Source: Phaeacidiphilus oryzae TH49 (GTDB taxonomy: Bacteria; Actinomycetota; Actinomycetes; Streptomycetales; Streptomycetaceae). From it: a stretch of 64,000 nucleotides of DNA. A program made the translations under genes and the position numbers. The notes under the pieces were generated by a model that worked only from the letters and a program-made list of their open reading frames with translations, was not told the DNA's origin and ran no database searches. Shown here in pieces: positions 7,901 through 33,532 of this stretch (the first letter of the stretch is position 1; each line of letters opens with the position of its first letter). The DNA lies in NCBI RefSeq assembly GCF_000744815.1, contig NZ_JQMQ01000005.1:1744055-1808054 (forward strand). Reading direction: 5' to 3'.

Positions 7901-10540
7901 CTACTGGAGGCGGTCCACCGGGCCCGCGGGGTCCGCCGACTGGTCCGCCGTCTGAGCCGCCGCCTGGTCCGCCGCCCGGTCCAGGACGGCGATGATCTCG
8001 TTGCGGGAGCTGAAGCGCAGCTTGGCCAGGATGTGCTCGACATGGGCGTCCGCCGTCCGCTTGGAGATCACCAGCTCGGCGGCGATCTGGCGGTTGGAGA
8101 GCCCGCGCGCGACCAGCTCGGCGACCTCGCGCTCCCGCCGGGTGAGCGCGGCCAGCGCCTCCGCGGCGGCGGAGGAGCGGGCGGCTCCGCCGTCCCGGCC
8201 GCTGTCCCGCCCGGCCGCCGGCCGGCGCTGGGCCGGCGGCGTCTCGAAGATCCCCGGGGGCAGCGCCGGGCGCGGCTCCTCCCCTTCGGCGGCGGGCGGG
8301 ACCGAGAGCACCGCGTCGACCAGCCGGTCCAGCGGGAAGCGGCCGCCGCGGTCGTAGAGCGCCTGCGCCCGGTCCTCGCCGATCAGTCCGCGGAGCTCCT
8401 CGACCAGCGCCTCATGGATCCGGTGCATCGCCTCGGTCCCGCTGTTCATCCGGCCGCCGGAGTGCTCCCAGACCCGGTCCGCCGCGCCGACCAGCCACAG
8501 CGCGGTCTCCGGGCGGCCCGCCGCGTACTCCGACCAGGCCAGCAGTTCGAGGCAGTAGCCGTGGCCCACGACGTCCCGCAGGTCCGCCTGGAGACGCAGG
8601 TAGGCGTGGGAGTCCGCGACGCAGCCTGCGGCGTCGCCGGCGAAGATCCGGGCGAAGCCGCGGACCAGGTGGAGGGTGCCGGTGCCCAGGCACTCGCCGT
8701 CGTGCGCGGAGAGCCGGTCGATGGCGGCGCCGGTGGTGGCCAGGGCGCCGTCCGCGTCGCCGGTGAGCACCGCGAGGAGGCCGGTCTCGATGGCCAGCAG
8801 GGCGCGTTCCAGCTCGGGGCCGCCGGGCTCCAGGTATCGGCGGGCGGACTCCAGCCGGTCCCGGGCCTCCTCGTGCCGGCCCATGTAGACGAGGGCCGCC
8901 CCGGAGTAGAGCTGGGCGTCGGCGTGGACGTCCGGCCGCACGGCGGCCGGGGCACAGGTGGCGGCCAGCGGCCGGAGCTCCGCCAGCAGGGCCTCGGCGG
9001 CGGTGAAGTCGCCCTGCAGGGCGGCGAAGAAGGCGCCGGCCGCGAGGAGCCGGACCGCCTCGGCACCCCCTGCGCCGGCCGTCAGGTCCTTGGGCGCCGT
9101 CCGCACCCGGTCCATCCAGTACCTGCCCTCGGACAGCTGCCCGGAGGAGTACCAGTACGGCCACAGGCAGCGGGCGAAACGGGAGGCGGCCGCCCACTCC
9201 GGTCCGGCCGTGCCGCCCGCGAGGTGGACGGCGTGCTCCAGCGCGGCCCGGTGGTTGGCGTCCTCGGCGAGGGCGGAGAGGTACAGCTCGGGCTGCCGGG
9301 CGGAGACGTACTCGGCGTACAGCTCCTCGGCCGCGACCCGGTAGCACTCCAGATGCCGGTCCCGGATCGGCCCGCTCTCGCCGAGCTGCTCCAGCCAGTC
9401 GGCGCCGAACTCGCGGAGGGTGTCCAGCAACCGGTAGCGGGTGCGGCCGTCCTGCTCGATGCGCAGCACCACGGACTTGTCGACCAGGCCGATCAGGGTC
9501 TCCAGCACGTCCTCCACCGGCAGGCCCGGACCCGAGCACACCTCCTCGGCGGCGGACAGGTCGAAGCCGCCGGCGAAGACCGAGAGCCTGGCCCAGAGCA
9601 GCCGCTCCTCCGGGGAGCACAGCTCGTGGCTCCAGCCGATCGCGGTGCGCAGCGTCTGGTGCCTGGGCAGGGCCGTCCGGCGGCCGCCGGTGAGCAGCCG
9701 GAAGCGGTCCTCCAGGCGGGCGGCCAGCTCCTCCAGCGGGAGGGCGCGCAGCCGTACCGTGGCCAGTTCGATGGCCAGCGGGATGCCGTCCAGCCGCCGG
9801 CAGAGCCGGAGCACCTGCCCGCGGTTCTCCGCGGTGACCGCGAAGCCCGGCACGACGGCGGCCGCCCGCTCGGCGAACAGCCGCACCGCGTCGCCGAGTC
9901 GGGCCAGATCGCCCGGCCAGGCCGGATCGCCGGGGCGGGCCGGATCGCCGGGCTGCCCGGGCACCCCGGAGCGGTCCGGCGCCGGGCGGTACGGGTCGGG
10001 GGCGCCGTACCGGCGGCCGCCCGGCGGCTCCGGCTCCAGCTGCATCGGGGTCACCGGGAAGGTGTGCTCGCCGGGGACGTCCAGCGGCTGCCGGCTGGTG
10101 GCCAGCACGGTCACCCCGGGCGCGGCTCTCAGCACCACGTCGACCAGCATCGCGCAGGTGTCGACCAGGTGTTCGCAGGTGTCCAGGATGAGCAGCAGCC
10201 GGCGCTCGGCGAGATAGCCGACCAACTGCTCCAGGGCGTCCCCGTGGCCCTGGCCGGAGAGGCCGAGGACCGCGCAGAGGGTGCGCGGCAGCAGCTCCTG
10301 GTCGGTAAGCCCGGAGAGCTCGGCCAGGTGGACGCCGTCCGGGTACTCCGCCCTGGCCTCGGCCGCGGAGCGGAGCGCGATCCTGGTCTTGCCCACCCCG
10401 CCCGGCCCGGTCAGGGTCAGCAGCCTGGCCCGGCCCAGGAGTTCGCGCACCGCGGAGAGCTCGGCGGTGCGGCCGACGAAGGAGGTGGTCTCGACCGGCA
10501 GGGCGCCGCGCCGGTGGCCGGGCCGTGGGGCTGTGATCAT
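7901..10540 (-). CDS. Large ATPase-type LuxR transcriptional regulator
   Basis: Predicted cytoplasmic DNA-binding switch of 879 aa. ATG 10540 is preferred over a TTG 16 codons upstream because GAGGAA lies at proper spacing before the ATG. N-terminal STAND/NB-ARC-like NTPase: Walker A LTGPGGVGKTRIAL near residue 45, LLLILDTCEHLVD, and the RLDGIPLAIELA (GxP) region. The centre (about 380-780) is helical and TPR-like. The C-terminal LuxR helix-turn-helix (about 800-860) reads LTRREREVAELVARGLSNR with SKRTADAHVEHILAKL. A low-complexity PGDPAR/AWPGD stretch interrupts the NTPase near residue 205. It is transcribed divergently from the GT2-membrane fusion gene, which makes it the obvious candidate regulator of the glycan block; that link is inference. 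Confidence 0.9.
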   Translation of the reverse strand: MITAPRPGHRRGALPVETTSFVGRTAELSAVRELLGRARLLTLTGPGGVGKTRIALRSAAEARAEYPDGVHLAELSGLTDQELLPRTLCAVLGLSGQGHGDALEQLVGYLAERRLLLILDTCEHLVDTCAMLVDVVLRAAPGVTVLATSRQPLDVPGEHTFPVTPMQLEPEPPGGRRYGAPDPYRPAPDRSGVPGQPGDPARPGDPAWPGDLARLGDAVRLFAERAAAVVPGFAVTAENRGQVLRLCRRLDGIPLAIELATVRLRALPLEELAARLEDRFRLLTGGRRTALPRHQTLRTAIGWSHELCSPEERLLWARLSVFAGGFDLSAAEEVCSGPGLPVEDVLETLIGLVDKSVVLRIEQDGRTRYRLLDTLREFGADWLEQLGESGPIRDRHLECYRVAAEELYAEYVSARQPELYLSALAEDANHRAALEHAVHLAGGTAGPEWAAASRFARCLWPYWYSSGQLSEGRYWMDRVRTAPKDLTAGAGGAEAVRLLAAGAFFAALQGDFTAAEALLAELRPLAATCAPAAVRPDVHADAQLYSGAALVYMGRHEEARDRLESARRYLEPGGPELERALLAIETGLLAVLTGDADGALATTGAAIDRLSAHDGECLGTGTLHLVRGFARIFAGDAAGCVADSHAYLRLQADLRDVVGHGYCLELLAWSEYAAGRPETALWLVGAADRVWEHSGGRMNSGTEAMHRIHEALVEELRGLIGEDRAQALYDRGGRFPLDRLVDAVLSVPPAAEGEEPRPALPPGIFETPPAQRRPAAGRDSGRDGGAARSSAAAEALAALTRREREVAELVARGLSNRQIAAELVISKRTADAHVEHILAKLRFSSRNEIIAVLDRAADQAAAQTADQSADPAGPVDRLQ

Positions 10541-10598
10541 GCGGTTCCTCGCAGCTCGCAACGGGGTGGCGGAGAGGGGGATCTCCAAGCGTACGCAG

Positions 10599-10619
10599 TT
10601 GCTGACATGCGGTCAGCAA
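10599..10619. promoter_or_regulatory. Perfect inverted repeat (candidate operator)
   Basis: TTGCTGAC (10599-10606), 5-nt spacer, GTCAGCAA (10612-10619): perfect 8-bp arms, 58 bp upstream of the regulator ATG and about 170 bp upstream of the divergent GT2 fusion. Size and placement suit a dimeric helix-turn-helix protein, possibly autoregulation by the adjacent LuxR-type regulator. The binding protein is unknown. Confidence 0.45.
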
Positions 10620-10739: not shown

Positions 10740-10745
10740 TATGCT
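10740..10745 (+). promoter_or_regulatory. Possible -10 element (TATGCT) for the GT2 fusion
   Basis: TATGCT fits the actinobacterial TAnnnT -10 pattern and is followed by GGTGTGGGGGATT, 40 bp before the ATG at 10786. No convincing -35 box lies at 17-18 bp, so this is tentative. Confidence 0.3.
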
Positions 10746-10785
10746 GGTGTGGGGGATTCTCAAGCCGTACCAGTGGGGGGAACAC

Positions 10786-13700
10786 ATGGTGCAGCAGGCG
10801 ACGCCTGCCGACGGCGCCGCGGGCGCCGCGAGCCCGGACACGGCAGACCGGGCGGACCCGATCGACACCGGCGAGGCCGCCACGGGGAAGGCGGCCGCCG
10901 AGGGCGCGCCGAGGGCGCCCGAGGCGCCCGGCACGCCGGGCCGCGTCGAGGCGGGAGAGGGCCCGGAGGCGCCCGGAGCCGTCCTGGAGGCGATCCGACT
11001 GACGCTGAGCGTGGTGGTCTGCGCATACACCGAGGACCGGTGGGACGACATCCGCGGCGCCGTCAACTCGCTGCGCGGACAGTACCTCCCACCGGATCAG
11101 ATCCTGCTGGTGGTCGACTACAACGAGGCCCTGCGCCGCCGCGCCGCGGCCGAACTGCGCGGGGTCGAAATCCTGGCCAACGCCGAGCAGAAGGGCCTCT
11201 CCGGCGCCCGCAACACCGGCCTGGCCGCCGCCACCGGGGACGTGGTCGCCTTCGTCGACGACGACGCGGCGGCCGAACGCGACTGGACCGTCCGGCTGCT
11301 GACGGCGTATCAGGACCCGGACGTGATGGCGGTCGGCGGCCGGATCGTGCCGGCCTGGGCGGCCGGGCGGCCGGACTGGTTCCCGCCCGAGTTCGACTGG
11401 GTGGTCGGCTGCACCTACACCGGGATGCCGCAGGAGGCGGCGCCGGTGCGGAACGTGATCGGCGCCAACATGTCCTTCCGCCGCGAACTCCTCGGCGAGC
11501 TGGGCGGGTTCATCCACGGCCTGGGCCGGATCGGCAACCGCCCGCTGGGCTGCGAGGAGACCGAGCTGTGCATCCGGGCCGGTGAGCACCACCCGGACCG
11601 GGTGATCCTCTACCAGCCGGCCGCGGCCGTCCACCACCACGTGCCCGCGGTCCGCGGCACCTGGGGGTACTTCCGCGCCCGGTGCTGGAACGAGGGCCTG
11701 TCCAAGGCGGCCGTCTCCCGGATGCGCGGGCCGCAGCAGGCGCTCGCCTCCGAACGCGCCTACCTGCGGCGGGCCATCCCGCGGGCGATCGGCCAGGCGC
11801 TGCGGCCGGGGCCGGAACGGCGGGCGCTGTCCACCGTCCCGGCGGTGGCGGCCGGGGTGGCGATCACCGCGGCCGGTTACCTCACCGGGCGGCTGCGGCC
11901 GGTGCACTACTCCGGCGAGGCGGGGGCGCGGGCGAGCGGCGGGGGCGGCGCGAACGCCGGGGGCGGACTGAAGTCCGGTGGGGCACGCAATCCGGGAACG
12001 GGCCCTCCGAGACCCTCGGCCGCGGGCAGGCCCGCAGGCAAGACCGCGGGCGCAGGCGCGGGCGCGGCCCACCCGGCGGCGCCGCACGGGGGCGAGTCCG
12101 GGCCCGGCGCCCCGCCCCGCGGCCCCCTGGTGCCCGCGCTGCTGCTGGCACTGCTGGGAACGGCGGTGACACTGTGGCTGCTGGCGCTTCCCCGTACGAA
12201 CATCGACAACCTGGGCGGTTTCGGGCTGACCGACCGGCTGCCGGTGCTCTTCTGGACCTCGCTGGTGCTGCTGTGCACCGGATTCGTGATCTCGCTGCAC
12301 CATCCGCGGCGGCATCTGGGCTGGCCGATCGCCTACACCGTGGCGCTGATCGCCTTCGAACGCGCGACCAGCGCACTGGTCTACCCGACCCTCCTCTACT
12401 CCTGGGCCTGGAAGCACGTCGACATCATCGACCGGCTGGCCGCCAACGGCGGCCACCTCCAGCTCAACAACTCGCTAGGGGAGATGTCCGCCTACGACCA
12501 GTGGGCCGGCTTCTTCTCCGCGAACACCGCGCTGGTCAAGCTGCTCGGGGTGCACGACGCCCTCTCCTACGCCCGCTGGGCCCCGCTGATCTCCAGCCTG
12601 CTGCTGCTCGCCCCGCTGGTGCTGATCTACCGGGTGTTCAGCCGCGACCGGCGGCTGGTGTGGACCGCGGTCTGGATCTTCTACCTGGGCAACTGGGTGG
12701 GCCAGGACTACTTCTCCCCGCAGGCCTACGCGTTCGTCCTCTACCTGGGCGTCCTCGCGGTGGTCTTCCGGCGGATGGCCCGGCCGGCGCGGCTCGGCAA
12801 GCACCACGCCGGCGACTCCGTCCACCCGCTGACCGCCCCCACCCCGCCCCCGCAGGACCGGCGGACGCGGTGGCTGTGGACGCTGCTGCTGCTGGTCCCG
12901 ATCGCCGCGATCTCGGCCGCGCACCAGCTCACCCCGCTGATGCTGGGCGCAGGACTGGCCGGGGTCTCGCTCACCCGGCGGTACCGCAACTGGCCGCTGG
13001 CGGTGATCGCGCTGGCCTTCCCGGTGGTCTGGGACAGCACGGTCGCGCTGCCCTTCGTCAGCATCAACATCAAGCAGATCATCCAGGACTTCGGCGATCT
13101 GATGGCCAACTCCTCGGCCACCACGGGCGCCACGCCCACCGGGACCGGCCAGATCGTCGTCTCCTACCTGGACCGGGGGCTGTCCGCAGGGGTCGCCGTG
13201 CTGGCCGTCGCCGGCGCGCTGCGGCATCCGGCGCTGCGCCGGACCGCGCTGCCGCTGATGCTGATCGGCGCGACCGCGCTGCCGATGCTCGTCGCCAACA
13301 ACTACGGCGGCGAGATGATCTTCCGGGTGTTCCTCTTCACCCTGCCGGCGCTGGCCTTCTTCGGCGCGGCCGCCCTGCAGCCCCGGCCGCACCAGGTGCA
13401 GCTGCCCACGCCGGTCGGGCAGGGCTCCCGGTTCGCGCTGCCTGCGGCCCGGCCGAGCCTGCGGGCGGCGGCGATGATCCTGCCGGCCCTGCTGGTCCTC
13501 GGCGGGGCCTTCGTCCCCAGCTACTTCGGCAAGGACGCGCTCAACTACTACCCGCCGGGCGAGATCCAGCTGGTGCAGAAGCTCTGGCGGATCGCGCCGA
13601 CCGGGGCGTACATCGTCGCCGGGGACAGCGACTTCCCGGACGCCAACCGGCGGTACGCGACCTCTCCGCACTACTGGATCGACGAGGACACCCCGGCGGC

Positions 13701-13971
13701 GGTCAAGCAGCTGATGGCCGACCCGCAGAAGCAGCTGGCGCACGACTTCGCCTGGGTGGACCCGAAGACCGGCGGGTACCTGATCATCACCCGGTCCCAG
13801 TACAACGACGCCGAGTTGGCGGGGCTGCTGCCGGCCGGCGGGCTCAAGCGGATCGAACGGGCCGCGGAGAGCTCCCCGCGGTTCCGGGTGGTCGCCCGGA
13901 ACCAGTACGGGGTCGTCTTCCGGTACGTACCGCCGAGCACCGCGCCGGCGAAGCCGAAGGGGGTGCGGTGA
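10786..13971 (+). CDS. Bifunctional GT2 glycosyltransferase fused to a polytopic membrane domain
   Basis: 1,061 aa; ATG 10786 is chosen for the GGGGGG purine run directly upstream. Residues 1-70 are Ala/Pro/Gly-rich. A GT2 domain follows (about 72-340): LSVVVCAYTEDRWDD, GLSGARNTGLAAATGD, metal/nucleotide site VAFVDDDAAAE near 158, and acceptor-side CEETELCIRAG near 256. A hydrophobic segment near 350 and a Gly/Ala-rich linker (about 378-445) lead to a membrane domain with roughly a dozen transmembrane helices (about 446-920), including the loop SPQAYAFVLYLG and the charged motif NNYGGEMIFRVFLF. A soluble C-terminal tail contains ATSPHYWIDEDTPAA. This suggests a cytoplasmic transferase joined to a GT-C-like or transporter-like unit for surface glycan synthesis. 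The next gene overlaps by 1 bp. Family assignment of the membrane half is uncertain. Confidence 0.82.
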   Translation: MVQQATPADGAAGAASPDTADRADPIDTGEAATGKAAAEGAPRAPEAPGTPGRVEAGEGPEAPGAVLEAIRLTLSVVVCAYTEDRWDDIRGAVNSLRGQYLPPDQILLVVDYNEALRRRAAAELRGVEILANAEQKGLSGARNTGLAAATGDVVAFVDDDAAAERDWTVRLLTAYQDPDVMAVGGRIVPAWAAGRPDWFPPEFDWVVGCTYTGMPQEAAPVRNVIGANMSFRRELLGELGGFIHGLGRIGNRPLGCEETELCIRAGEHHPDRVILYQPAAAVHHHVPAVRGTWGYFRARCWNEGLSKAAVSRMRGPQQALASERAYLRRAIPRAIGQALRPGPERRALSTVPAVAAGVAITAAGYLTGRLRPVHYSGEAGARASGGGGANAGGGLKSGGARNPGTGPPRPSAAGRPAGKTAGAGAGAAHPAAPHGGESGPGAPPRGPLVPALLLALLGTAVTLWLLALPRTNIDNLGGFGLTDRLPVLFWTSLVLLCTGFVISLHHPRRHLGWPIAYTVALIAFERATSALVYPTLLYSWAWKHVDIIDRLAANGGHLQLNNSLGEMSAYDQWAGFFSANTALVKLLGVHDALSYARWAPLISSLLLLAPLVLIYRVFSRDRRLVWTAVWIFYLGNWVGQDYFSPQAYAFVLYLGVLAVVFRRMARPARLGKHHAGDSVHPLTAPTPPPQDRRTRWLWTLLLLVPIAAISAAHQLTPLMLGAGLAGVSLTRRYRNWPLAVIALAFPVVWDSTVALPFVSINIKQIIQDFGDLMANSSATTGATPTGTGQIVVSYLDRGLSAGVAVLAVAGALRHPALRRTALPLMLIGATALPMLVANNYGGEMIFRVFLFTLPALAFFGAAALQPRPHQVQLPTPVGQGSRFALPAARPSLRAAAMILPALLVLGGAFVPSYFGKDALNYYPPGEIQLVQKLWRIAPTGAYIVAGDSDFPDANRRYATSPHYWIDEDTPAAVKQLMADPQKQLAHDFAWVDPKTGGYLIITRSQYNDAELAGLLPAGGLKRIERAAESSPRFRVVARNQYGVVFRYVPPSTAPAKPKGVR

Positions 13972-14351
13972 TGAACCGCTGGTCCACGCCCTCGCCCAGC
14001 GCCCGGCTGCTGCTGGCCGCGACCGGGTGGCTGACCGTGCTGGCCGCGACCGAGCTGCCGGCGAACTCGGCGCCGCGGCTGGCCGTGGTCGGGCTGTACC
14101 TCTTCCTCGGGCCTGGCGCGGCGCTGCAACTGCCGTTGCGGCCCGCGCTGATGGGCGGGCGGCGGATCGTCGAGCGCCGGGAGACCCGGCTGGAGAGCTG
14201 GATGCTGGCGGCCATGCTGAGCATCTCGGCGCTGGTGCTGGTCGCCGTGGGGCTGATGATGGCCGGCGGGTTCTCCGCGCTGACGACGCTGGTGGTCCTG
14301 GCGATCATCACCACGGTGGGCGCGCTGCTGCCGTCCGTGCGGGCCGGATAG
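13971..14351 (+). CDS. Small integral membrane protein, unknown function
   Basis: 126 aa, starting in a TGATG overlap with the GT2-membrane fusion and therefore translationally coupled. Four hydrophobic segments are visible: LLLAATGWLTVLAATEL, AVVGLYLFLGPGAALQL, MLAAMLSISALVLVAVGL and TTLVVLAIITTVGALL. A short charged loop IVERRETRLESW separates the second and third. No catalytic motif is apparent. Coupling to the fusion suggests an accessory membrane subunit, but this is inference. A strong hairpin terminator follows 24 bp after the stop. Confidence 0.75.
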   Translation: MNRWSTPSPSARLLLAATGWLTVLAATELPANSAPRLAVVGLYLFLGPGAALQLPLRPALMGGRRIVERRETRLESWMLAAMLSISALVLVAVGLMMAGGFSALTTLVVLAIITTVGALLPSVRAG

Positions 14352-14374
14352 CACGCGGCGGTGGGGATCGGCGG

Positions 14375-14411: not shown

Positions 14412-15263
14412 CTACCCGCGCCGCCCCCGCAACCCCCGCGCCCCGCGCCGGTACAGCGCGAAGCCCTTCGTCAGCGTGCGCGCCCGCGCGTACTCCCGGG
14501 CGATCCCCTCGCCGGAGGCGACCGCGCGGAACGCGGCCTCGGTGGTGGACGGCCCGACGGTCAACCGCGCCAGCGCGTACGGGCTCTGCCGGCCCGGCGC
14601 GGCCAGCGCGTTCGCCACCGCGCACGCGCCCTCGTAACCCGCCGCTCGCACCACCTCGCGCACCCGCGCGTCCGAGTAGCCGAACGGGTACCCGAAGGTC
14701 CCCGGCTCGGTACCGGCCCACTCGGCCAGCAGATCGCGGTTGCGGAGCACCTCGTCCCGCAGCCGCTCCGGCCGCAGCCGGTCCAGCTGCGGATGGCTGT
14801 GGCTGTGGCCGCCGATCTCGACGTCCTCGGCCGCGCACTCGGCGAGTTGGCCCCGGCTGAGCATCGGCGCCAGCGGCCGCCCGGCCGCCGCCGGGCCGGC
14901 GTCCGCCAGCCAGCCGGTGGTCACGTACAGCGTGGCCGGCACCCGGTAGCCGGTCAGCATCGGCAGCACCGTGTCGTGGAAGTCCCGGTAGCCGTCGTCG
15001 AAGGTCAGCACCACGGGCCTGGACGGCAGTGCGGACTTCTCCCGGCGCGAGCACGCCCGCCAGTGCCGGACCAGCCGCCGCATGGTGACGGCGTGGAGGC
15101 CCAGCTCCTCCAGGATCTCCAGCTGGCGGGCGAAGGCTCCCACCGGCACGGACAGCGCCCTGGTCCCGCGGGTGGGCCGGTCGTTGACCGAGTGGTACAT
15201 CAGCACCGGCACCGTCCGCGGTTCCACCCCGGTCCCGGACTCCTCGATCCTGGGCTGCTTCAC
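14412..15263 (-). CDS. Polysaccharide deacetylase (NodB/CE4 domain)
   Basis: 283 aa from GTG 15263, which overlaps the upstream GT2 stop as GTGA and has GGAGGG just before it. CE4 landmarks: MT1 LTFDDGYRDFHDTVLPML with the metal-binding Asp pair, MT2 IGGHSHSHPQLD with the metal histidines, then FGYPFGYSDARVREVV and AVANALAAPGRQSPYALARL. There is no signal peptide or membrane segment, so it may act on a cytoplasmic lipid-linked intermediate or leave the cell by another route. Predicted to remove N- or O-acetyl groups from a glycan. It is paired with a GT2 gene in one transcript. Confidence 0.9.
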   Translation of the reverse strand: MKQPRIEESGTGVEPRTVPVLMYHSVNDRPTRGTRALSVPVGAFARQLEILEELGLHAVTMRRLVRHWRACSRREKSALPSRPVVLTFDDGYRDFHDTVLPMLTGYRVPATLYVTTGWLADAGPAAAGRPLAPMLSRGQLAECAAEDVEIGGHSHSHPQLDRLRPERLRDEVLRNRDLLAEWAGTEPGTFGYPFGYSDARVREVVRAAGYEGACAVANALAAPGRQSPYALARLTVGPSTTEAAFRAVASGEGIAREYARARTLTKGFALYRRGARGLRGRRG

Positions 15264-16393
15264 CTGGCTCCCTCCGTCTCCGCGCGGCTCCCGCTCCGCG
15301 CGGAGATCGCGCCCGCCCCGTAGCCGGCCACCGTGACCAGGAAGCCGGCCACGATCGCCCCGGCCATCGCCGCCCCGGACAGGTCCCCGCGGGCGGCCCG
15401 GCCGAGTCCGCGCAGGACGCCCAGCGGCAGCGTCCGGGTCACGTACTGCCGCTCGGTGGAGAGGCCCGCCGCCGCTCCGACGTGACCGGCCACCGCCGCC
15501 TTCGAGAGCCCCTCCGCCCAGCAGCGGCGCACCAGGTACCCGAACCGCTCGCGCTCCAGCGGCACCTTGTGGTGGATCACCGCGCGGTCCTCGAAGAGGA
15601 AGACCGCCGCCGGGTCGATCTGCTGCATCCGGATGCACAGCTCGGTCTCCTCGCCGCCGAGCGGGCGGACCGCCCGCCGCCGGACCAGCCCCAGCCCGCG
15701 CCGCGGGGCGGAACGATTCGTCCCGGCGCGGTCCGTGCGCGGGCGCGCCCCCGCGCCCGCGTCCGCTCCCCGTCCGAGACCGGTGTCGAATCCGCCGACC
15801 TCGACCAGCGCCGACCGCCGGAACGAGGCATTGCCGCCGAGGACGTTGCGCACCCGGGCGGAGCCGGTCGGCATCCCCCGGTACGAGGCACCGTGCACCC
15901 AGTCGAACTCCTCCGGGTACCAGTTCGGGCGCCGCCCGGACTGCCAGGCCGGCACCGTGCGCCCGCCGACACCGCGGACCTCGGGACCGGTGTAGCTGTC
16001 CGCGAACCAGCTCAGCCAGTCCTCGCAGGCCACCGCGTCGTCGTCGAGAAATGCGATGATCTCTCCGCGCGCCTCGGCAATTCCGGTATTACGGGCTCCC
16101 GAAAGCCCGCGTTCGAATCTACTGGCGATCACCCGCACTTCCGGCAGATCGCCGGAAGGTTCCTGCGGGCCTGAAGTGGCCGGCGGTTCGGTTTTCCGGT
16201 CCTCTACAGGAGGGCCACAGTCCGTCAACTCCGCGCGCAACCTCTCGAAGAGCACGGGATTGTGGTCCACCACCACCAGCACCTCGAGCGGTGCCACCTT
16301 CTGCCGCCTGGCCGATCGGACCGCCGCGAGCAGGTCTTCCCACCGTTCCTCGGTGTAACCGCACACGACGACAGAGACGCTTGCTCTCCCCAT
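15260..16393 (-). CDS. GT2 family glycosyltransferase
   Basis: 377 aa. N-terminal VSVVVCGYTEERWEDLL, then FERGLSGARNTGIAEARGE, the metal site IAFLDDDAVACEDW, FDWVHGASYRGMP and GGEETELCIRMQ. A hydrophobic stretch near the C terminus (GAIVAGFLVTVAGYGAGA) may anchor it to the membrane. It is clearly paralogous to the GT2 half of the 10786-13971 fusion, sharing VVVC.YTE.RW, GLSGARNTG, FDWV and EETELCIR in order. It differs by an Arg-rich insert of roughly 30 residues just before GGEETELC, and an acidic/Pro-rich insert near residue 60. The ATG at 16393 is followed downstream by the coupled deacetylase. It probably adds a sugar to a surface polymer; donor unknown. Confidence 0.88.
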   Translation of the reverse strand: MGRASVSVVVCGYTEERWEDLLAAVRSARRQKVAPLEVLVVVDHNPVLFERLRAELTDCGPPVEDRKTEPPATSGPQEPSGDLPEVRVIASRFERGLSGARNTGIAEARGEIIAFLDDDAVACEDWLSWFADSYTGPEVRGVGGRTVPAWQSGRRPNWYPEEFDWVHGASYRGMPTGSARVRNVLGGNASFRRSALVEVGGFDTGLGRGADAGAGARPRTDRAGTNRSAPRRGLGLVRRRAVRPLGGEETELCIRMQQIDPAAVFLFEDRAVIHHKVPLERERFGYLVRRCWAEGLSKAAVAGHVGAAAGLSTERQYVTRTLPLGVLRGLGRAARGDLSGAAMAGAIVAGFLVTVAGYGAGAISARSGSRAETEGAR

Positions 16394-25374: not shown

Positions 25375-26966
25375 CACGCCCCTCCGTCCGCTGCTCCGCC
25401 CCCGCCGTCGCCGGCGTCCGCGTCCAGGCCCCGTGGGCTCTCGGCCGAGAGCTCGCTGGGGTTCCCGGCGGCCTCACCCCCCGCGGCGTCACCCCCGGCG
25501 GACCCGTCCGCCCGCCCGCCTCCATTCTCGGTCGGGGAACTGTCGGGTCCAGCACCGATCGCGTCGTTTTCGGACCTCTCGGAGTCGGATCCGGCCGTCT
25601 TCTCGTCCTCCTCCGGATCCTCCTCCGGCAGCCCGCTGATCAGGACGCCGTGGACCACCCCGCGCGGCGGCGGACCGGCCCCCGGCCGGCGGCCGAGGTA
25701 GCCGACGCCGGCGCCCTCGGCCCGCAGGGCGAGCCTCCGCTCCCGGCCGGCCGGGTCCGCGACCACGGCGGTGAAGTCGACCGACCGGTGCGAGCGCCGC
25801 CAGCCCGTCCCCCGGCCACGCGCCGACCGGGCGGCGGCGCCGGCGCCGTCGGCCGGGGCGTCGGCCTCGGCCTCGGCCTCCTCTTCGCCCGCCGTCACCA
25901 CCGACCTGACGGTGTGTCCGGCCGGCAGCAGTTCGCCCAGCGCCTCGGCCAGCGCCGGCGGGCGGAGCAGCTCCGCGATCCGCCACTGCCCGGCCGGCAG
26001 CACGATCGGCTTGTGATGGCGCAGCAGCGCGAGGGGCGTCTCGTCGTCCGCCAGCGACGGGTACATCGGCACCACCCGCTCGGGCGCGAACCCGGCCGCG
26101 GTCAGCCGGCCGGCCACCGAGGCCAGCGAGCCGCCCGTGCGGGGCGGGGCGGCGATCAGCAGCACGAGGCCGCCGACCCGGCGCACCGACTCCGGCAGCC
26201 TCGGCTCCTCCGGCAGGATCGGCCCGCCGGCGCAGGTGGTCCTGGCCACCACGTGCCGGTACTCCAGCTGCGAGAGGGCGGCCGCGGCCAACGGGGCGAG
26301 GTAGGCCCCGGACGATCGCAACCCCAGTACCAGCAGCGGGCGTTCGCGGTCCGGGTACTGGTCGGCGAAGCGCTCGGCGAGCGACAGCACGTCCATCGGA
26401 TGGAGGTCGAGGTCGCGGAACGAGGACGGCGGGCGCAGCGTACTGCCCGCCAGCAGCCGGGCGGCCTGCGGCGGGATCCCGGAGCGGAGCCCGTCCACCG
26501 CGGTGGCCACGGAGAGCAGCACACCGCGGGCGTCCGGCCCGTCGGCCTCCGGCTGATAGTCCCGCAGCACCGCCTCGGCCAGCACATTGGCCAGGTCGCG
26601 CAGCGTCACATGCCATTCGGCCAGCCCCAGCCGGCCCTTGGCGGCGGCCGAGCCGGCGGCCACCGCGTCCAGCGCGCGCAGGGCGATGCCGCGCGGGGCG
26701 GAGAGCGGCGCGCCGGTGGCCCCGGTGCCGGCCAGCACCGCCCGGTGGATCCGGCGGATCTCGCCGTCGGCGCCCTGCAGCCGGTCGGCGACGATCTGGG
26801 CGGCGCCGGCCGCGTTGAGGAAGGCGTCCAGCGGACGGCCCGCGTCGGCGGCGGCGACCAGGCGTTCCAGCACGATGTGGAGTTCCGCCCGGGCGGTCGG
26901 CGCCGGCCTGCGGAGCAGGGCCGCGATCGGGGGCGCGAACGGAGCCGACTGCTGATCAGTTGCCAT
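25374..26966 (-). CDS. PRTase-like protein with degenerate PRPP loop (paralogue of 16753-19974 N-terminus)
   Basis: 530 aa. Residues 1-345 align by eye with domain 1 of the 16753 protein: PPSSFRDLDLHPMDVLSL, LLVLGLRSSGAYLAPLAA and VLLIAAPPRTGGSLASVAG. In that last motif, near residue 268, the acidic pair seen in the paralogue (LLLDDPPVTG) is replaced by Ala-Ala, so PRPP binding or catalysis is doubtful. A short stretch GAGVGYLGRRPG near 415 matches the beginning of the paralogue's kinase-like domain, then the sequence dissolves into an acidic, Gly-rich tail. It thus looks like a truncated paralogue, perhaps a regulatory or scaffold partner. It overlaps the GT2 gene upstream by 11 bp and the flippase downstream by 1 bp. 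Confidence 0.75.
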   Translation of the reverse strand: MATDQQSAPFAPPIAALLRRPAPTARAELHIVLERLVAAADAGRPLDAFLNAAGAAQIVADRLQGADGEIRRIHRAVLAGTGATGAPLSAPRGIALRALDAVAAGSAAAKGRLGLAEWHVTLRDLANVLAEAVLRDYQPEADGPDARGVLLSVATAVDGLRSGIPPQAARLLAGSTLRPPSSFRDLDLHPMDVLSLAERFADQYPDRERPLLVLGLRSSGAYLAPLAAAALSQLEYRHVVARTTCAGGPILPEEPRLPESVRRVGGLVLLIAAPPRTGGSLASVAGRLTAAGFAPERVVPMYPSLADDETPLALLRHHKPIVLPAGQWRIAELLRPPALAEALGELLPAGHTVRSVVTAGEEEAEAEADAPADGAGAAARSARGRGTGWRRSHRSVDFTAVVADPAGRERRLALRAEGAGVGYLGRRPGAGPPPRGVVHGVLISGLPEEDPEEDEKTAGSDSERSENDAIGAGPDSSPTENGGGRADGSAGGDAAGGEAAGNPSELSAESPRGLDADAGDGGGGAADGGA

Positions 26967-28362
26967 TGCGGGGTGCCTCCCAGGGGAGCGGCAGGCCGCG
27001 GACGGTGCGGCGGCTGCGCAGGTAACCGATGGGCCCGTAGAGCAGTCCGCGGCGTTCCAGCCGGGTCAGCCGGGCGGGCCAGAAATCCGGGTCGCCGGCC
27101 GCGTCCTCGGGCGCGGCCTCGGCGGTGGCGGTGCGGGCCAGGGCGTAGCGGACCCCGCCGGGCAGCCTGCGGAGCAGGGCCGGCAGCATCCGGGGTTCGC
27201 GCAGCGCGGCGGCCGTGAGGTAGGCGCCGAGGCCCGCTCCGTAGCCGAAGGCCTGGTTGTCCAGGTCCTCCTGGCGCTCCCGGTGGTGGTGCCAGACCAG
27301 CGCCTCCGGCTGGTACGCCAGGGCGTGCCCGGCGACGATGATCCGGAAGAAGCCGATCAGGTCGTCGCCGCCGCGGGCCGCCGTACCGGTGCCGGTGGCC
27401 GGGTCGAAGCCGCCGATCCCGCGCAGCGCGTCGGCCCGGAAGGCCATGTTGGCCCCCGAGCCCAACCTGCCCGCGGTGAACGGGAAGAGCGGGTCGTCGG
27501 CGGGCGGTTCGGCGAGCGAGTAGCGGCGCGGGACGAAGCCCTTGGCGAAGCCGCCGTGCGCCTCCAGCGAGGCCTGCGCCGGGGTGTCCAGCCGGGCGGG
27601 CAGGATCAGACCGGTGACGCAGGCGATGTCGGGGCCGGCCGCGAAGGCCTCGGCGAGGGCGCTCGCCCAGCGGACGTCGACCACCACGTCGTCGTCGGTG
27701 AAGGCGAGCACCTCTCCGAGGGCCTCCGCGAGCCCGCGGTTGTGGGCGGCGGCGAGTCCGGGCACGGGCTCCCGGACGTACCGGGCCAGCTCGGCGTAGC
27801 GCTCCTTGACCAGCCGCTCGGTGGCGTCGGTCGCGGGGGCGTTGTCGACCACCACGACCTCGTACCGGGGGTGGTCCAGGGCCGCCAGCGAATCCAGGCA
27901 GCGGGCCAGCAGCGCGGGCCGCTCGCGGGTCGCGATCACCACACTGAGCAGGGGCGTCGACGCAGCGTCGACCTTCCTCCGCAGTCTGGCGACCGAACCG
28001 GCGCCGGCGTCGGGACAGGCCGCCCGGGCGGCGGCGAGGAGCGCCCCGGCCGGGTCGTCGGCCGGGAGGACGGTCTGCACCATCCCGACCGGCCGTCCGT
28101 CCGAGCGCACCACCGCCAGCGTCTCGCCGGGGCCCAGCGGCCGGTCGTCGCCCGCCGCGCGGCGGGCGCGGGCGGCCGACTCCTCGGGTCCGCCGCCCAG
28201 TTCGACCTCGGCCACCGCGATCGGCACCTTCCGCGGATCGATCCGCACCTCCGCCGAGGCGGCCCCCGGCAGTGCGGCGCCGCCCGCGGCGATGTCGGCC
28301 TCGGCGGCGCCCGCGGCACCGCCGGCGCCGGGCGCGGACGCCGCGTCGGACGGCGCGGTCAT
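26956..28362 (-). CDS. GT2 family glycosyltransferase with N-terminal extension
   Basis: 468 aa. Residues 1-45 are Ala/Gly-rich. A small domain (about 45-120, with GETLAVVRSDGRPVGMVQ) precedes the GT2 catalytic domain: LLSVVIATRERPALLARCL, VVVVDNAPATDATE, VPGLAAAHNRGLAEALGE, metal site AFTDDDVVVD near 222, and GSGANMAFRADALRGIGGF. The variable C-terminal side has LAYQPEALVWHHHRERQ, a HHH motif common in this GT2 subgroup. The ATG is in an ATGA overlap with the preceding GT2 gene. Likely a cytoplasmic sugar transferase acting before flippase export; donor and acceptor unknown. Confidence 0.88.
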   Translation of the reverse strand: MTAPSDAASAPGAGGAAGAAEADIAAGGAALPGAASAEVRIDPRKVPIAVAEVELGGGPEESAARARRAAGDDRPLGPGETLAVVRSDGRPVGMVQTVLPADDPAGALLAAARAACPDAGAGSVARLRRKVDAASTPLLSVVIATRERPALLARCLDSLAALDHPRYEVVVVDNAPATDATERLVKERYAELARYVREPVPGLAAAHNRGLAEALGEVLAFTDDDVVVDVRWASALAEAFAAGPDIACVTGLILPARLDTPAQASLEAHGGFAKGFVPRRYSLAEPPADDPLFPFTAGRLGSGANMAFRADALRGIGGFDPATGTGTAARGGDDLIGFFRIIVAGHALAYQPEALVWHHHRERQEDLDNQAFGYGAGLGAYLTAAALREPRMLPALLRRLPGGVRYALARTATAEAAPEDAAGDPDFWPARLTRLERRGLLYGPIGYLRSRRTVRGLPLPWEAPRNGN

Positions 28363-29174
28363 CCCGCCGCCTCCGCGGGGACGGTCCGGCCGCGGTGCTC
28401 ACGCAGCAGTGTGCGCAGCACCCGCTGGCCGTCCCGGAAGGTGCGGAGGTTGGACTGGCCGGTGCGGCGCGGGAGTTCCAGCGTCGGCACCTCCGCCACC
28501 CGCAGCCCGCCCAGCAGCGCCCGGACCACCATCTCGGTCTCGATCTCGAATCCGGTGGACTGGAGGTCGAGCCGGTCCAGCGCGTCCCGCCGGAACGCGA
28601 TGAAGCCGTAGCAGAGGTCGGTGAGGGTGCTCTGGTACATCACATTGGTGAGCGCCAGCAGTGCCCTGTTGCCCAGCCGGCGGACGGTGGTGATGTCCAG
28701 TGACCCGCCGCCGCCCATGAAGCGGGACCCCTTGACGAAGTCGTAGCCGTTCTCCAGGAAGTGGACGTAGCGCGGGATCTCGCGGGGCGACATCGAACCG
28801 TCCGCGTCGATCATCACGATGTAGTCGCCCTTGGCCTCCGTGAAGCCGGTGCGCAGAGCGGAGCCCTTGCCCTGGCCGTGCTGGGCGACCACCCGGACGC
28901 CGGGCAGCGAGGCCCGGGCCATCTCCAGGGTGGCGTCGGTGGAGTCGCCGTCGACCAGGATCACCTCGTCGACGCAGTCCGGCATCCGGCTGAGCACCCA
29001 GCCCACGTTGGCCGCCTCGTTGCGGGCCGGGACGATCACGGTGACCGTCCCGGTGCCGACCACGGGACGGGGCTCGCGCTCCGGCAGCGGCGGCTCGGCG
29101 AGGACGGCTGTGGCGACGCCACCGCCCGCGCTTTCGGGCGCACGCAGCAACCGATCGGTTTCGGGTACGTTCAT
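28359..29174 (-). CDS. GT2 glycosyltransferase (dolichyl-phosphate mannose synthase-like)
   Basis: 271 aa from ATG 29174, with AGGTG upstream; an in-frame start 32 codons earlier lacks a good ribosome site. Motifs: VTVIVPARNEAANVGWVL, VILVDGDSTDATLEMA, GKGSALRTGFTEAKGD, metal site VMIDADGSMSPREIP and DLCYGFIAFRRDALDRL. This is the DPM1/polyprenyl-phosphate sugar synthase pattern without C-terminal transmembrane helices. It probably charges a polyprenyl phosphate or starts the chain. It is the first gene of the minus-strand operon ending with the deacetylase at 22608. Confidence 0.9.
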   Translation of the reverse strand: MNVPETDRLLRAPESAGGGVATAVLAEPPLPEREPRPVVGTGTVTVIVPARNEAANVGWVLSRMPDCVDEVILVDGDSTDATLEMARASLPGVRVVAQHGQGKGSALRTGFTEAKGDYIVMIDADGSMSPREIPRYVHFLENGYDFVKGSRFMGGGGSLDITTVRRLGNRALLALTNVMYQSTLTDLCYGFIAFRRDALDRLDLQSTGFEIETEMVVRALLGGLRVAEVPTLELPRRTGQSNLRTFRDGQRVLRTLLREHRGRTVPAEAAG

Positions 29175-29697: not shown

Positions 29698-29711
29698 GAA
29701 CACCGATGCGA

Positions 29712-30989
29712 TCAGCCCGCGATCGACCCCGCGATCCGCCCTGCCGCGAAGCCCGTGCCGGCGACGAACCGCATCAGCGGGCCGAAGGTCGGCGCCGCGG
29801 CGAGACCGGCGAAGTACAGCCCCGGCACACTGGACTGGTAGCCCGGGTCCAGGTCGGGCGAGCCGGTACGGGGCACCAGCCGGACCGAGCGCCGCAACCC
29901 CTCGGCCAGCCACTCGGCGCCCGGCACCGAGACCCGGTAGCCGGTCGCGGCCAGCACGTGGTCGGTCACCAGCACCCCGCCCTCGGAGCCGATCGCCGCC
30001 GAGCGGCTGACCGCCGCGATCGGCGAGTCCAGGGTCAGCACGACCTCCTCGTCCCCGCGCGGCCCGCGCAGCTCGGCCCGGCGGATCCGGCGGCCGGTGC
30101 CGATCGGCAGCACGCCGTCCACCCGCTCCTTCAACCACCAGGCACCGGACGGGCCGAGGATCTGCTTCACCAGCCGCAGCCGTACCGCCACCGGCATCCG
30201 GCGGACCAGCTGGGGGACGTCGCTCACCGTCCGGTGCGACCAGCCGGGGCCGAGCGGGCTGGCCGGCTTCACCGTCCGGTACAGCGCGGACGGGCGGGCG
30301 ACCGGCGGCGGTCCGCCCCACAGCACCCGCGGCCCGCGCGCCAGCACCGTCACCTGTGCGCCGGCCTCGTGCAGCAGTGCCGCGCTCTCCAGCGCCGACT
30401 GCCCGGCGCCGACCACGGCCACCCGGCGGCCGGCGAACGGCGAGAAGTCGGTGTGCTGCGAGGCGTGCGAGACCGGACCCTCCGGATCCGGGCCCTTGGG
30501 CGCGGCGGCTATCAGCTCCGGCGGCACGTAGTCCGCGCCGACCAGGCCGGTGGCCACCACCACCGCCCGCGCCTCGAACTCCTCGCCGCCGGCCAGCGCG
30601 ACCTCGAAGACCCCCTCGCCGCCCGGCGCCCGGGACGCCCTCCGCTGGACGTCGACCACCCGCTCGGCCTCGACCTCGGGCACCAGCCGGCGCTGGAACC
30701 ACTCCCCGTAGGCGATGAAGTGGCCGATCGGGATCGGATGCCGCTCGTCGTACGGAGCGATGTCCTCCGCGCGACAGAAGTCCGCGAAGGACGCCCCCTG
30801 CTCGGGCGCCGACAGGTCGGACGCGTCCGGCGTCGACTTCAGGTACATCCCCGCCGGCATCCGCTGCCGCCAGCTGCTCATCGTGTCGCCGAAGACCCGC
30901 ACCGGCAGGCGGCGGCCCATCAGATGCGCCGCCGTGGACAGCCCGTAGGGCCCCGCGCCGATCACGGCGACAGGCAGAGTTCCAGACAT
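29712..30989 (-). CDS. FAD/NADPH-dependent monooxygenase-like oxidoreductase
   Basis: 425 aa from ATG 30989 with GGGGGAGA upstream. Two dinucleotide-binding folds: FAD site VAVIGAGPYGLSTAAHL at the N terminus and NADPH site VAVVGAGQSALESAALL near residue 195, followed by the ATGY motif VLAATGYRV near 345. Other landmarks are SSWRQRMPAGMYLKS and LYFAGLAAAPTFGPLMRF. This is the layout of flavin N-hydroxylating or Baeyer-Villiger-like monooxygenases and related pyridine nucleotide oxidoreductases. It is single-gene, with its own promoter and terminator, divergent from the ATP-grasp gene. A tailoring oxidation in the block's pathway is inference. Confidence 0.87.
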   Translation of the reverse strand: MSGTLPVAVIGAGPYGLSTAAHLMGRRLPVRVFGDTMSSWRQRMPAGMYLKSTPDASDLSAPEQGASFADFCRAEDIAPYDERHPIPIGHFIAYGEWFQRRLVPEVEAERVVDVQRRASRAPGGEGVFEVALAGGEEFEARAVVVATGLVGADYVPPELIAAAPKGPDPEGPVSHASQHTDFSPFAGRRVAVVGAGQSALESAALLHEAGAQVTVLARGPRVLWGGPPPVARPSALYRTVKPASPLGPGWSHRTVSDVPQLVRRMPVAVRLRLVKQILGPSGAWWLKERVDGVLPIGTGRRIRRAELRGPRGDEEVVLTLDSPIAAVSRSAAIGSEGGVLVTDHVLAATGYRVSVPGAEWLAEGLRRSVRLVPRTGSPDLDPGYQSSVPGLYFAGLAAAPTFGPLMRFVAGTGFAAGRIAGSIAG

Positions 30990-31020
30990 GAATCTCCCCC
31001 TTGGTTCCACCGAACCCCCT

Positions 31021-31039
31021 CGGTTCCCCCCTGGAACCG
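31021..31039. promoter_or_regulatory. Inverted repeat CGGTTCC/GGAACCG in the divergent leader
   Basis: Perfect 7-bp arms (31021-31027 and 31033-31039) with a 5-nt spacer. A further GGTTCC copy starts at 31003, 19 bp from the one at 31022. The group lies in the 5' leader of the FAD gene, just downstream of its predicted promoter. It could be an operator or an RNA hairpin. Confidence 0.4.
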
Positions 31040-31047
31040 ACAGGTCC

Positions 31048-31076
31048 ATGGTGCGGCAGGCGTTCCGTTCTGTCAG
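31048..31076 (-). promoter_or_regulatory. Predicted promoter of the FAD monooxygenase gene
   Basis: On the minus strand, CTGACA (31071-31076), a 17-bp spacer and CACCAT (31048-31053). The -35 is one base from TTGACA; the -10 is weak. The start would fall about 50 bp upstream of the ATG at 30989. Confidence 0.4.
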
Positions 31077-31210
31077 CGGTGCGACCGTGATCGAGTCTCC
31101 TCGCGCCCCGAATGTCACCCTCCGTTCATAGTCCCGCCTCTGTCCCGTGGCCTCCGGGCGCTCTACTCTGCCGCTGGGGGAGACAGCTGTACGGGGGCCG
31201 GGGGGTCGCG

Positions 31211-33532
31211 ATGGCAGACGCGGTGACGCGCAGGTCGCAGCAGAAGGCGCGCGAGGAGAGCGAGGGGCGCGCAACAGCACGCGAGCCACGCGGGGAACCC
31301 GCACCGGGGGACGACGCCGGACCACCCACCGTCCCCGTACAGCGAGCCCCGCAGCCCACGACGCAGCCGGTGCCACCCACCCCGGCGCCGGCGGGGCCGG
31401 GCCTGGCCGCGCCGTCCTCAGAGGCGGCGGGCTCGCCACCTGAGAGCCCGGCTCCAGCGGCCCCGACTCCGACACTCCCGGCCCCAGGGGCCGCAGCGGC
31501 GGAGGGCCCGGCCCTGCTCACCCCGGCCACGCAGGCCCTGGGGCCGGCGACCCCGGACGCGGCCCCGATCGCCGCGCTCGGCGCGGTCGGCGCGGTCGGC
31601 GCGGTCGCGGCCCTGGCCCCGGCCCCGGCCCCGGCCCCGACAACCGTGGACGCGGAGGCCCAGAGCCCGGCGGGCTCAGTCGCACAAGCCACGGGATCGG
31701 CGACCCCCGGCGCCATAGGCGCGGCCCGGCTCGCCTCGGCCGCGCAGGCCCTGGGGTCGGCGACCTGGGACGCCACAGGCACGGCCCCGATCGCCGCTGC
31801 CGCGACCCCGGCCCCGCCCCTGGCAGGCCTGGACGCGGAGGCCCAGGGCCCGGCGGCCGGAGACGTGGCGCCCGCAGGCGCGGCGGTCTTGGTCCCGCTG
31901 GCCCGAGTCCCGGAGGCGCCGGCTCCGGAGGGTTCGGGTATCGCGGGCCCAGGTAGCGCGCTTCCGAGTGCGGCGGCCCCCGGCGGCGCGGGCTTGGTGG
32001 GTCCGGGCGAGGCGGGGGTTTCGGTGGCTGCGCCGGCCGTACCAGCCGTGGCGGAGCCGGCGGCGCGGGCGTCCGCGGTGGCGCCCCGGCGTTCCCGGCG
32101 GCGGGCCGCTCGCGGGCCCGAACTCGACCGGGCCGTACCGGCGTTGATGGTGCGCATCGGCCACTACCCGCTGCACCACGGCACGGTCGGCGCGATCCGC
32201 AGCCTCGGCAGGCTCGGCGTCCCGGTGTACGCGATCACCGAGGACCGGTTCGCGCCGGCGGCGTTCTCCCGGCATCTGCGGGGCCGGATCGACTGGCCGA
32301 CCACCGGCAAGGAGCCGCCCGCCCAGCTGGCCGAGCGGCTGCTCGCCATCGCCGGCCGCCTGCACCGCAGGACCGGTCGCCGCGCCGTCGCGGTGGCCAC
32401 CGACGACGAGGCGGCGGTACTGCTCGCCGAGTACGCCGGGCCGCTCGCCGAGCATCTGCGGCTGACCGCCGTTCCCCCGGCGCTCCCCCGCGCGCTGGCC
32501 GGCAAGCAGTCGCTGCACGAGCTCTGCGTTCGCCACGGTGTTCCCAGCCCGGGATCCCGACTGGTCGGCGGCAGCGGGCAGTTGGCCGAGGCGGCCGAGA
32601 CGCTCGCCTTCCCCCTCGTGGTGAAGAACGACGCCCCGTACGGGCGGCTGTCGGCGCCCGCGGTGTCGGCGACCACCCGGATCGACGACGCCGGGGAGCT
32701 CTTCCGGCTGGCCGCCGAGTGGGAGCAGGGCGAGGTCTTCCCCTCGGTGCTCCTCCAGGAGTACCTCCCCGGGGACGCGGCCGAGGACTGGATCGCCCAC
32801 GTCTACTGCCCCTCACCGTCGGACACGGGGGCCGGCAGTGAGGGCGCGCAGACGGCGCAGGCCGCGCAGACGGCGCAAGCCGCCGCCGAGCCGGTGGTCT
32901 TCACCGGGGTGAAGGTCCGCTCCTGGCCGCCGACAGCCGGTGTCACCGCGCACGCCTACAGCGCCGGCAACGCCGAACTCGCCGCGCTGACCCGGCGGTT
33001 CTGCCAGTCCATCGGCTTCCGCGGGATCGCCGACCTGGACTGGCGGCTGGACCTCCGCGACGGCCGCTACAAGCTCCTGGACTTCAACCCCCGCCTGGGC
33101 GCCCAGTTCCGCCTCTTCGAGACGGTGAACCGGATCGACCTGGTCCGCGCCCAGCACCTCGACCTGACCGGCCGCCCGATCCCGGCCGCCCGCCAGGCCG
33201 AGGGCCGCCGCTTCACCGTCGAGCTCCTCGACCTCCCGGCCCGGCTCGCCGCCCGCGGCGGCCGCGTCTCGGCCCGGGTCCCGGATCCCGGATCCCGGAG
33301 CGCGAGCGCGAGGACGAGGACGAGGACGGAGGCCGTACCGACACCGCCGCCGTCCCCCCTCCCGCTCCCCCTCCCCGTCGACTCGGAACGGCAGCCCGCC
33401 GACGGCCGGCGCGAGCTGGCCTGGGCGTCCGTCGACGACCCGGTGCCCGCATTGGCCGCCGCCGCCCGCTCGGCCGGACCGGCCGTCCACCGGGTGCGCG
33501 CCATCCTGCGCGCCCGCCGGTCGCGGGACTGA
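31211..33532 (+). CDS. ATP-grasp ligase with long disordered N terminus
   Basis: 773 aa from ATG 31211 (GGGGGG upstream). Residues 1-310 are Ala/Pro/Gly low complexity with local repeats such as AVGAVGAV and APAPAPAP, unusual for this family. The ATP-grasp part (about 315-690) has MVRIGHYPLHHGTVGAIR, AVAVATDDEAAVLLAEYAG, KQSLHELCVRHGVPSPGS, LVVKNDAPYGRLSAP (nucleotide-binding Lys), VLLQEYLPGDAAEDW and the metal-binding motif KLLDFNPRLGAQFRLFE. The C-terminal region is again low complexity. It catalyses ATP-dependent carboxylate-amine or carboxylate-thiol ligation via an acyl phosphate; substrates are unknown. It is divergent from the FAD gene and ends the glycan-like block just before the cobalamin riboswitch. 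Confidence 0.85.
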   Translation: MADAVTRRSQQKAREESEGRATAREPRGEPAPGDDAGPPTVPVQRAPQPTTQPVPPTPAPAGPGLAAPSSEAAGSPPESPAPAAPTPTLPAPGAAAAEGPALLTPATQALGPATPDAAPIAALGAVGAVGAVAALAPAPAPAPTTVDAEAQSPAGSVAQATGSATPGAIGAARLASAAQALGSATWDATGTAPIAAAATPAPPLAGLDAEAQGPAAGDVAPAGAAVLVPLARVPEAPAPEGSGIAGPGSALPSAAAPGGAGLVGPGEAGVSVAAPAVPAVAEPAARASAVAPRRSRRRAARGPELDRAVPALMVRIGHYPLHHGTVGAIRSLGRLGVPVYAITEDRFAPAAFSRHLRGRIDWPTTGKEPPAQLAERLLAIAGRLHRRTGRRAVAVATDDEAAVLLAEYAGPLAEHLRLTAVPPALPRALAGKQSLHELCVRHGVPSPGSRLVGGSGQLAEAAETLAFPLVVKNDAPYGRLSAPAVSATTRIDDAGELFRLAAEWEQGEVFPSVLLQEYLPGDAAEDWIAHVYCPSPSDTGAGSEGAQTAQAAQTAQAAAEPVVFTGVKVRSWPPTAGVTAHAYSAGNAELAALTRRFCQSIGFRGIADLDWRLDLRDGRYKLLDFNPRLGAQFRLFETVNRIDLVRAQHLDLTGRPIPAARQAEGRRFTVELLDLPARLAARGGRVSARVPDPGSRSASARTRTRTEAVPTPPPSPLPLPLPVDSERQPADGRRELAWASVDDPVPALAAAARSAGPAVHRVRAILRARRSRD

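Follow-up and report, generated by a model that had tools for sequence, protein, structure and literature searches.

The window, the whole stretch of 64,000 nucleotides of DNA from the soil actinomycete Phaeacidiphilus oryzae TH49 that was analyzed, carries a polysaccharide-assembly locus that makes up the bulk of positions 7.9 to 33.5 kb (Table 1). It comprises GT2 glycosyltransferases, a flippase, predicted cytoplasmic NodB deacetylases, a multi-TM domain, an ATP-grasp enzyme, and an FAD enzyme, and it is flanked on both sides by cobalamin genes, as judged from sequence reading and synteny. Gene calls were codon-based, domains were assigned by Pfam and NCBIfam scans of the region proteins, and gene starts are uncertain throughout the region. 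TM segments were predicted by a simple hydropathy count.

Table 1. Features called in the 7.9 to 33.5 kb region of the window
Gene	Feature	Position	Strand	Basis
	LuxR-family regulator (NTPase + GerE)	7901..10540	-	Pfam GerE 8.5e-16
g08	GT2 (res. 90-254) fused to multi-TM domain (res. ~440-1076)	10741..13971	+	PF00535 1.6e-23, ~8 TM
g09	Small membrane protein	13971..14351	+	
g10	NodB deacetylase 1, no TM predicted	14412..15263	-	PF01522 3.1e-28; motifs TFDDG/HSHSHP
g11	GT2	15260..16393	-	PF00535 2.1e-18
g12	PRT1: helical N-terminus, type I PRTase, middle domain, HAD-IIB	16801..19974	+	PF00156/PF08282 in relatives
g13	APH-family kinase, overlaps PRT1 end	19971..21566	+	PF01636 6.3e-10; HGDFHPGN...DW
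g14	4Fe-4S ferredoxin + MBL-fold protein, outside conserved system	21553..22458	-	Pfam
g15	NodB deacetylase 2, core, start uncertain	22608..23492	-	PF01522 3.6e-16
g16	Wzx-like flippase	23452..25374	-	~9 TM; PF01943 in 3/10 relatives
g17	PRT2: pseudo-PRTase, degenerate PRPP loop AAPPRTG	25374..26966	-	
g18	GT2, distantly MftF/EpsD-like, under NCBIfam cut-offs, core	26956..28362	-	
g19	GT2, AglJ/PpgS-like (polyprenyl-phosphate-sugar synthases), below cut-off, core	28359..29174	-	TIGR04182 4.6e-46, NF058614 4.4e-18
g20	FAD/NAD(P)-binding oxidoreductase, glycan-core associated	29712..30989	-	PF07992 5.4e-16
g21	ATP-grasp enzyme, glycan-core associated	32147..33532	+	profile match to biotin carboxylase 1.2e-8

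The glycosyltransferases and the polysaccharide flippase, the latter recognized through its relatives, are features of a Wzx-type assembly locus. The scans of the region proteins detected no initiating phosphoglycosyltransferase, which may be encoded elsewhere in the genome. A preliminary description of this DNA had listed four GT2 domains (g08, g11, g18, and g19), two NodB deacetylases, a flippase, an APH-like kinase, an ATP-grasp enzyme, and an FAD enzyme, and all of these are present. The g08 GT2 is joined to a multi-TM C-terminal domain that had no match in Pfam or the PDB and may have a GT-C or polymerase-like role; in two related loci (L014 and L022) the two parts are separate genes. In L014, the g09 homologue (L014:4311-5654) combines a DUF1616-like membrane protein with a GH16 glycanase in a single fusion inside the glycan cluster. 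Among close relatives, g19 shows 60 to 83% identity. The only PDB matches of the g16 flippase profile were designed TIM barrels, and these were taken as chance. The LuxR-family gene at the left edge is possibly a regulator of the locus, its membership being uncertain; in L092, this cluster likewise has a 62% homologue at its flank. Outside this region, positions 49748-60845 of the window hold a second glycan-like cluster with GT4 genes, a P-loop kinase-like region fused to a GT4, a PIG-L deacetylase, a PMT-like GT-C, and a GH42-like protein.

PRT1 is one protein in which a helical N-terminus is followed by a type I phosphoribosyltransferase (PRTase) domain (residues ~205-375), a middle domain (~396-740), and a HAD-IIB phosphatase domain (~745-1000); an alternative upstream start lies at 16753. 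The HAD phosphatase that had been described as a gene of its own is thus real, but it is the C-terminus of PRT1. Homologue sets were seeded from conserved PRT1 motifs, and 19 PRT1 proteins were aligned over their length. In this alignment, the PPi loop R251-T-S-G was invariant, as were D306-D307, P309, and G312 of the PRPP loop (DDPPVTG). The acidic pair of the latter was DD in 28 of 31 PRT1 frames, DE in two, and DA in one. HAD motifs I to IV were conserved (D749/D751, T786, K903, and G927-D928-D932), with D749/D751, K903, and G927-D928/D932 among the residues invariant in the 19 proteins. PF08282 matched 19/19 of the proteins, the phosphatase being of the Cof-like HAD-IIB type, and PF00156 matched 13/19 (best, 1.2e-5). 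Searched against the PDB, the PRTase profile returned PyrR as the best match together with APRT, OPRT, and HPRT (best E, 1.1e-3). A fold check had been proposed for PRT1, and it agreed with this assignment: Foldseek placed human HGPRT first (E, 6e-3; probability, 1.00) for the AlphaFold model, which is reliable over parts of the N-terminus and the PRTase only. The acidic-pair PRPP loop, the PPi loop, and the predicted fold identify PRT1 as a putative type I phosphoribosyltransferase, and the conserved motifs of its C-terminus are those of a HAD-IIB phosphatase.

The middle domain had no detectable relatives in a PDB profile search or in a comparison with the APH family. A reading of its motifs as a degenerate APH kinase was rejected, as hhalign against the APH family gave a probability near zero and the PDB search gave nothing. 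On an Actinospica contig (L010, the same contig as L023), PRT1 shares a single open frame with a GT2, which points to a fused GT2-PRTase-HAD protein. A distant Streptomycetaceae family (L067:247-2196, L068:1150-3225, and L069:931-2946) forms a long branch in the tree; it carries related PRTase motifs (RTGG, DDPP in L067/L068), and no HAD domain was recognized in it.

The second PRTase-like protein, PRT2, is related to PRT1 in the tree, as the preliminary description had proposed for the pair, but only PRT1 has the PRPP loop of a catalytic PRTase. The loop reads AAPP in the PRT2 of the window, compared with DDPP in PRT1, and the acidic pair is lost in all PRT2 copies read (GA, GG, SG, AG, AA, or DG); a lone DD in the tally belongs to L045, a PRT1 truncated by a contig end. 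By this loop, PRT2 falls outside the type I PRTases. The copies retain the fold signature G-[LV]-R-x2-G-x2-L-A-P-L, and most retain PPxTG. They are monophyletic (support, 100/100) and nested among the Streptomycetaceae PRT1 proteins, and some genomes carry PRT2 without PRT1. Pairwise dN/dS values were ~0.07 to 0.46 for PRT2 (all <0.5), similar to those of PRT1 (~0.2 to 0.4), indicating that PRT2 is under purifying selection. Because the acidic pair is lost and dN/dS is nevertheless low, PRT2 is probably a retained, noncatalytic paralogue; it offers a clear example of a pseudo-PRTase that has been conserved. An AlphaFold model of PRT2 built from 4 sequences was poor (pLDDT, 46), and a fold search with that model gave nothing informative.

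Conservation of PRT2 despite the lost acidic pair, along with PyrR as the top profile match of PRT1, would suit PRTase domains that act as PRPP sensors or regulators and tune glycan synthesis with no transfer of ribose. We consider this unlikely, since the PRT1 chain keeps both the PPi and the PRPP loops plus an intact HAD phosphatase, and Pfam found no recognizable DNA- or RNA-binding domain in the 19 PRT1 proteins.

When named genomes were searched, PRT1 turned up in Streptomyces, Streptacidiphilus, Actinospica, Amycolatopsis, Rhodococcus, Pseudonocardia, Acidimicrobiales, Thermoleophilia, and one Chloroflexi MAG; it is rare, occurring in 1 of 395 other genomes sampled across the phylum. We counted 27 PRT1 loci, several of them on contigs that were cut short and a few obtained via g19. 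The genes found near PRT1 were g18 (22 loci), the flippase (21), a g08-type GT2 (21), g19 (20), either NodB deacetylase (19), the APH kinase (18), the multi-TM domain (17), GH16 (17), GNAT (8), EAL (8), ATP-grasp (3), and FAD (2). Glycan genes were scarce or absent within 10 kb of PRT1 at several loci (L034, L037, and L039). Twelve comparison loci were picked for their similarity to g19 in genomes lacking both PRT1 and PRT2 (one of them, G184, has a distant family member only). All 12 contained g19, g18, the flippase, the multi-TM domain, NodB, and a further GT2 (g08 or g11 type); GH16 was present in 11 (absent in L083), ATP-grasp in 8, and FAD in 5. The APH kinase was found at 18/27 PRT1 loci versus 1/12 loci without PRT1 or PRT2 (Fisher P = 0.001). 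From this contrast and the presence of the core genes in 12/12 loci, we distinguish a core glycan set from an accessory module of PRT1 and the APH kinase, which is found again next to these glycan genes in lineages ranging from Streptomycetaceae to Thermoleophilia and in one Chloroflexi MAG.

The ATP-grasp gene showed the reverse trend (8/12 loci without PRT1 or PRT2 versus 3/27 with PRT1; P = 0.0009), a contrast that is partly positional because the windows were centered on different genes. Together with the FAD enzyme, it goes with the glycan core, also where PRT1 and PRT2 are absent. The ferredoxin-MBL gene was found at 0/27 PRT1 loci. This fusion, which had been taken for an Fe-S-like MBL of the pathway, is real, but it is widespread as a separate gene (44/150 family genomes) and lies, for example, 4.8 Mb from PRT1 in G026. 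Its absence from the PRT1 loci and its unlinked position in other genomes rule out a part in the pathway, and it is a chance neighbor unrelated to the glycan system. Chance juxtaposition of unrelated genes thus fits the MBL gene, but as an account of the locus it is extremely improbable, because the same set (the core and PRT1-APH) is met again in other families and classes, where some of its genes share open frames. In four loci (L018, L020, L092, and L093, with L092 and L093 at the same cobalamin site), the corresponding locus has no PRT1-APH-MBL segment between g09 and g15, and the window copy of this segment therefore looks like an insertion. The genes are real and conserved, yet they do not form the single pathway that had been suggested, because relatives without PRT1 or PRT2 keep the glycan set; the glycan core and PRT1-APH each recur, and the whole set does not do so as one unit.

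In g13, the catalytic HGDxHxxN motif and the metal-binding aspartate are intact (HGDFHPGN...IDW), as in the APH kinase family. The flippase and the APH kinase share one open frame in five loci (L014, L016, L027, L035, and L036), which suggests that phosphorylation is coupled to export. PRT1, PRT2, the APH kinase, and both NodB deacetylases have no predicted TM segment, so all of them are expected to be cytoplasmic, alongside PRPP. Neighbors in relatives include GH16, GH26, GNAT, and EAL/GGDEF proteins; glycoside hydrolases, GNAT, and EAL/GGDEF proteins are common in exopolysaccharide loci.

Set beside these domains, motifs, gene neighborhoods, and shared frames, and the selection on PRT2 after its loop loss, we infer the acceptor, the ribosyl transfer, the order of steps, and the roles of the kinase and PRT2 as follows. 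The locus product would be a lipid-carried, partly de-N-acetylated glycan. The polyprenyl carrier may be loaded by g19, judging from its below-cut-off resemblance to AglJ and a mycobacterial-type polyprenyl-P-GalNAc synthase. The GT2s would build the glycan in the cytoplasm, and NodB would deacetylate it at the inner face. The PRTase domain of PRT1 would then transfer 5-phosphoribosyl from PRPP to a cytoplasmic lipid-linked glycan or amino-sugar acceptor, and its HAD-IIB domain would strip the 5-phosphate to leave a ribofuranosyl residue. The APH kinase may phosphorylate the lipid-linked product around export, next to the Wzx-like flippase that would export it, and a membrane-embedded transferase or polymerase would act afterward, with PRT2 kept as a noncatalytic binding or scaffold subunit. 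We put this scheme, a lipid-carried glycan ribosylated by PRT1, phosphorylated by the APH kinase, and served by a noncatalytic PRT2, at slightly under an even chance.

The scheme is supported by the PRTase profile and model matches, the invariant RTSG and DD, and the conserved HAD motifs, as well as by co-location with glycan genes, the flippase-APH frames, the association of APH with PRT1, and the predicted cytoplasmic enzymes. An exported-glycan locus with a PRTase-HAD enzyme is conserved across Actinomycetota, and this fits the ribosyl-type modification of a surface polymer that the preliminary description had put forward. Type I PRTases mostly take nitrogen acceptors, which speaks against it. 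A middle domain to which the scheme gives no part, the missing initiating phosphoglycosyltransferase of the region, and the glycan-poor loci also count against it. So do genomes with PRT2 alone, which operate a similar locus with no PRTase catalysis, so that the locus does not need ribosylation. By analogy, two-step ribosylation of glycans by a phosphoribosyltransferase and a HAD phosphatase has precedents (PMC11127046, PMC10299916).

Two other products of PRT1 were weighed. The flippase, the multi-TM (possibly GT-C) domain, and the HAD phosphatase of the same locus would also serve a polyprenyl-phosphate-ribofuranose that is made by PRT1, flipped, and used outside by a membrane transferase, as in three-component pentofuranose systems. 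This is quite unlikely: the known synthases are UbiA-type membrane proteins (PMC11127046), none of which was found among the region proteins by Pfam or NCBIfam, PRT1 has no TM segment, and g19 already resembles a polyprenyl-P-sugar synthase. The other product would be a soluble metabolite resembling a nucleoside, of the sort predicted for Ter-linked modules, which would act independently of the glycan or be attached at a later step; nucleotides are the usual products of type I PRTases, and a PRTase with a HAD phosphatase would give a nucleoside. We regard it as distinctly improbable, since the PRTase family of the Ter modules (PRTase_2, PF15609) is absent from the genome, no TerD gene lies within 100 kb (the closest is ~107 kb away), glycan genes are the conserved partners, and ATP-grasp does not follow PRT1.

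These findings, with no Ter-family Pfam match among the 19 PRT1 proteins and ATP-grasp going with the glycan core, rule out the Ter link that had been raised earlier. The likeness to the Ter-linked module (PRTase_2, ATP-grasp, and HAD) is a loose list of enzyme classes; families, neighbors, and partner enzymes differ. Butirosin BtrL/BtrP carry out PRPP-dependent O-ribosylation of an amino-sugar acceptor and then dephosphorylation, as separate proteins and on an antibiotic, not a polymer; the two steps are like those proposed for PRT1. Literature searching turned up nothing of use on BtrL/BtrP or on comparable Streptomyces loci. Three-component polyprenyl-phosphoribose systems (PMC11127046) and mycobacterial DPR synthesis have PRPP as ribose source, a phosphatase, and a flippase in common with our scheme. 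The Klebsiella O-antigen gPRT-PRP (PMC11127046) resembles PRT1 in combining a PRPP-using transferase with a HAD phosphatase in a single protein encoded in a polysaccharide locus, whereas PRT1 has a type I PRTase by profile and fold, a Cof-like HAD-IIB phosphatase, and an extra middle domain. In the Haemophilus influenzae type b capsule enzyme Bcs3, CriT-CrpP transfers ribofuranosyl-5-phosphate from PRPP and then removes the 5-phosphate with a HAD domain in one chain (PMC10299916). Bcs3 differs in its additional CroT and SH3b domains and a mostly helical CrpP cap. No gPRT or CriT chain was among the matches of the PDB profile searches with PRT1. If our inference holds, PRT1 therefore resembles gPRT-PRP and Bcs3 in chemistry and is not a member of either by sequence. 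The gPRT fold is reportedly unlike other PRTases. To our knowledge, PRPP-dependent ribosylation of a polymer comes so far only from enzymes unrelated to PRT1. PRT1 may tentatively be viewed, well short of an even chance, as a polymer ribosyltransferase of independent origin, in which a canonical type I PRTase is combined with a HAD-IIB phosphatase and a middle domain not described before. On this view, its acceptor would be an amino-sugar glycan on a lipid carrier, to be phosphorylated next by a flippase-fused kinase, and a derived pseudo-PRTase clade would retain a noncatalytic role in loci of this type. Actinomycete exopolysaccharides are poorly understood, and a PRT1 that ribosylates a polymer would provide an annotation marker for ribose-containing glycans and a type I PRTase turned to sugar acceptors. 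If that polymer is an exopolysaccharide, PRPP-dependent polymer ribosylation would have arisen more than once, on the unrelated domains of PRT1, gPRT-PRP, and Bcs3.
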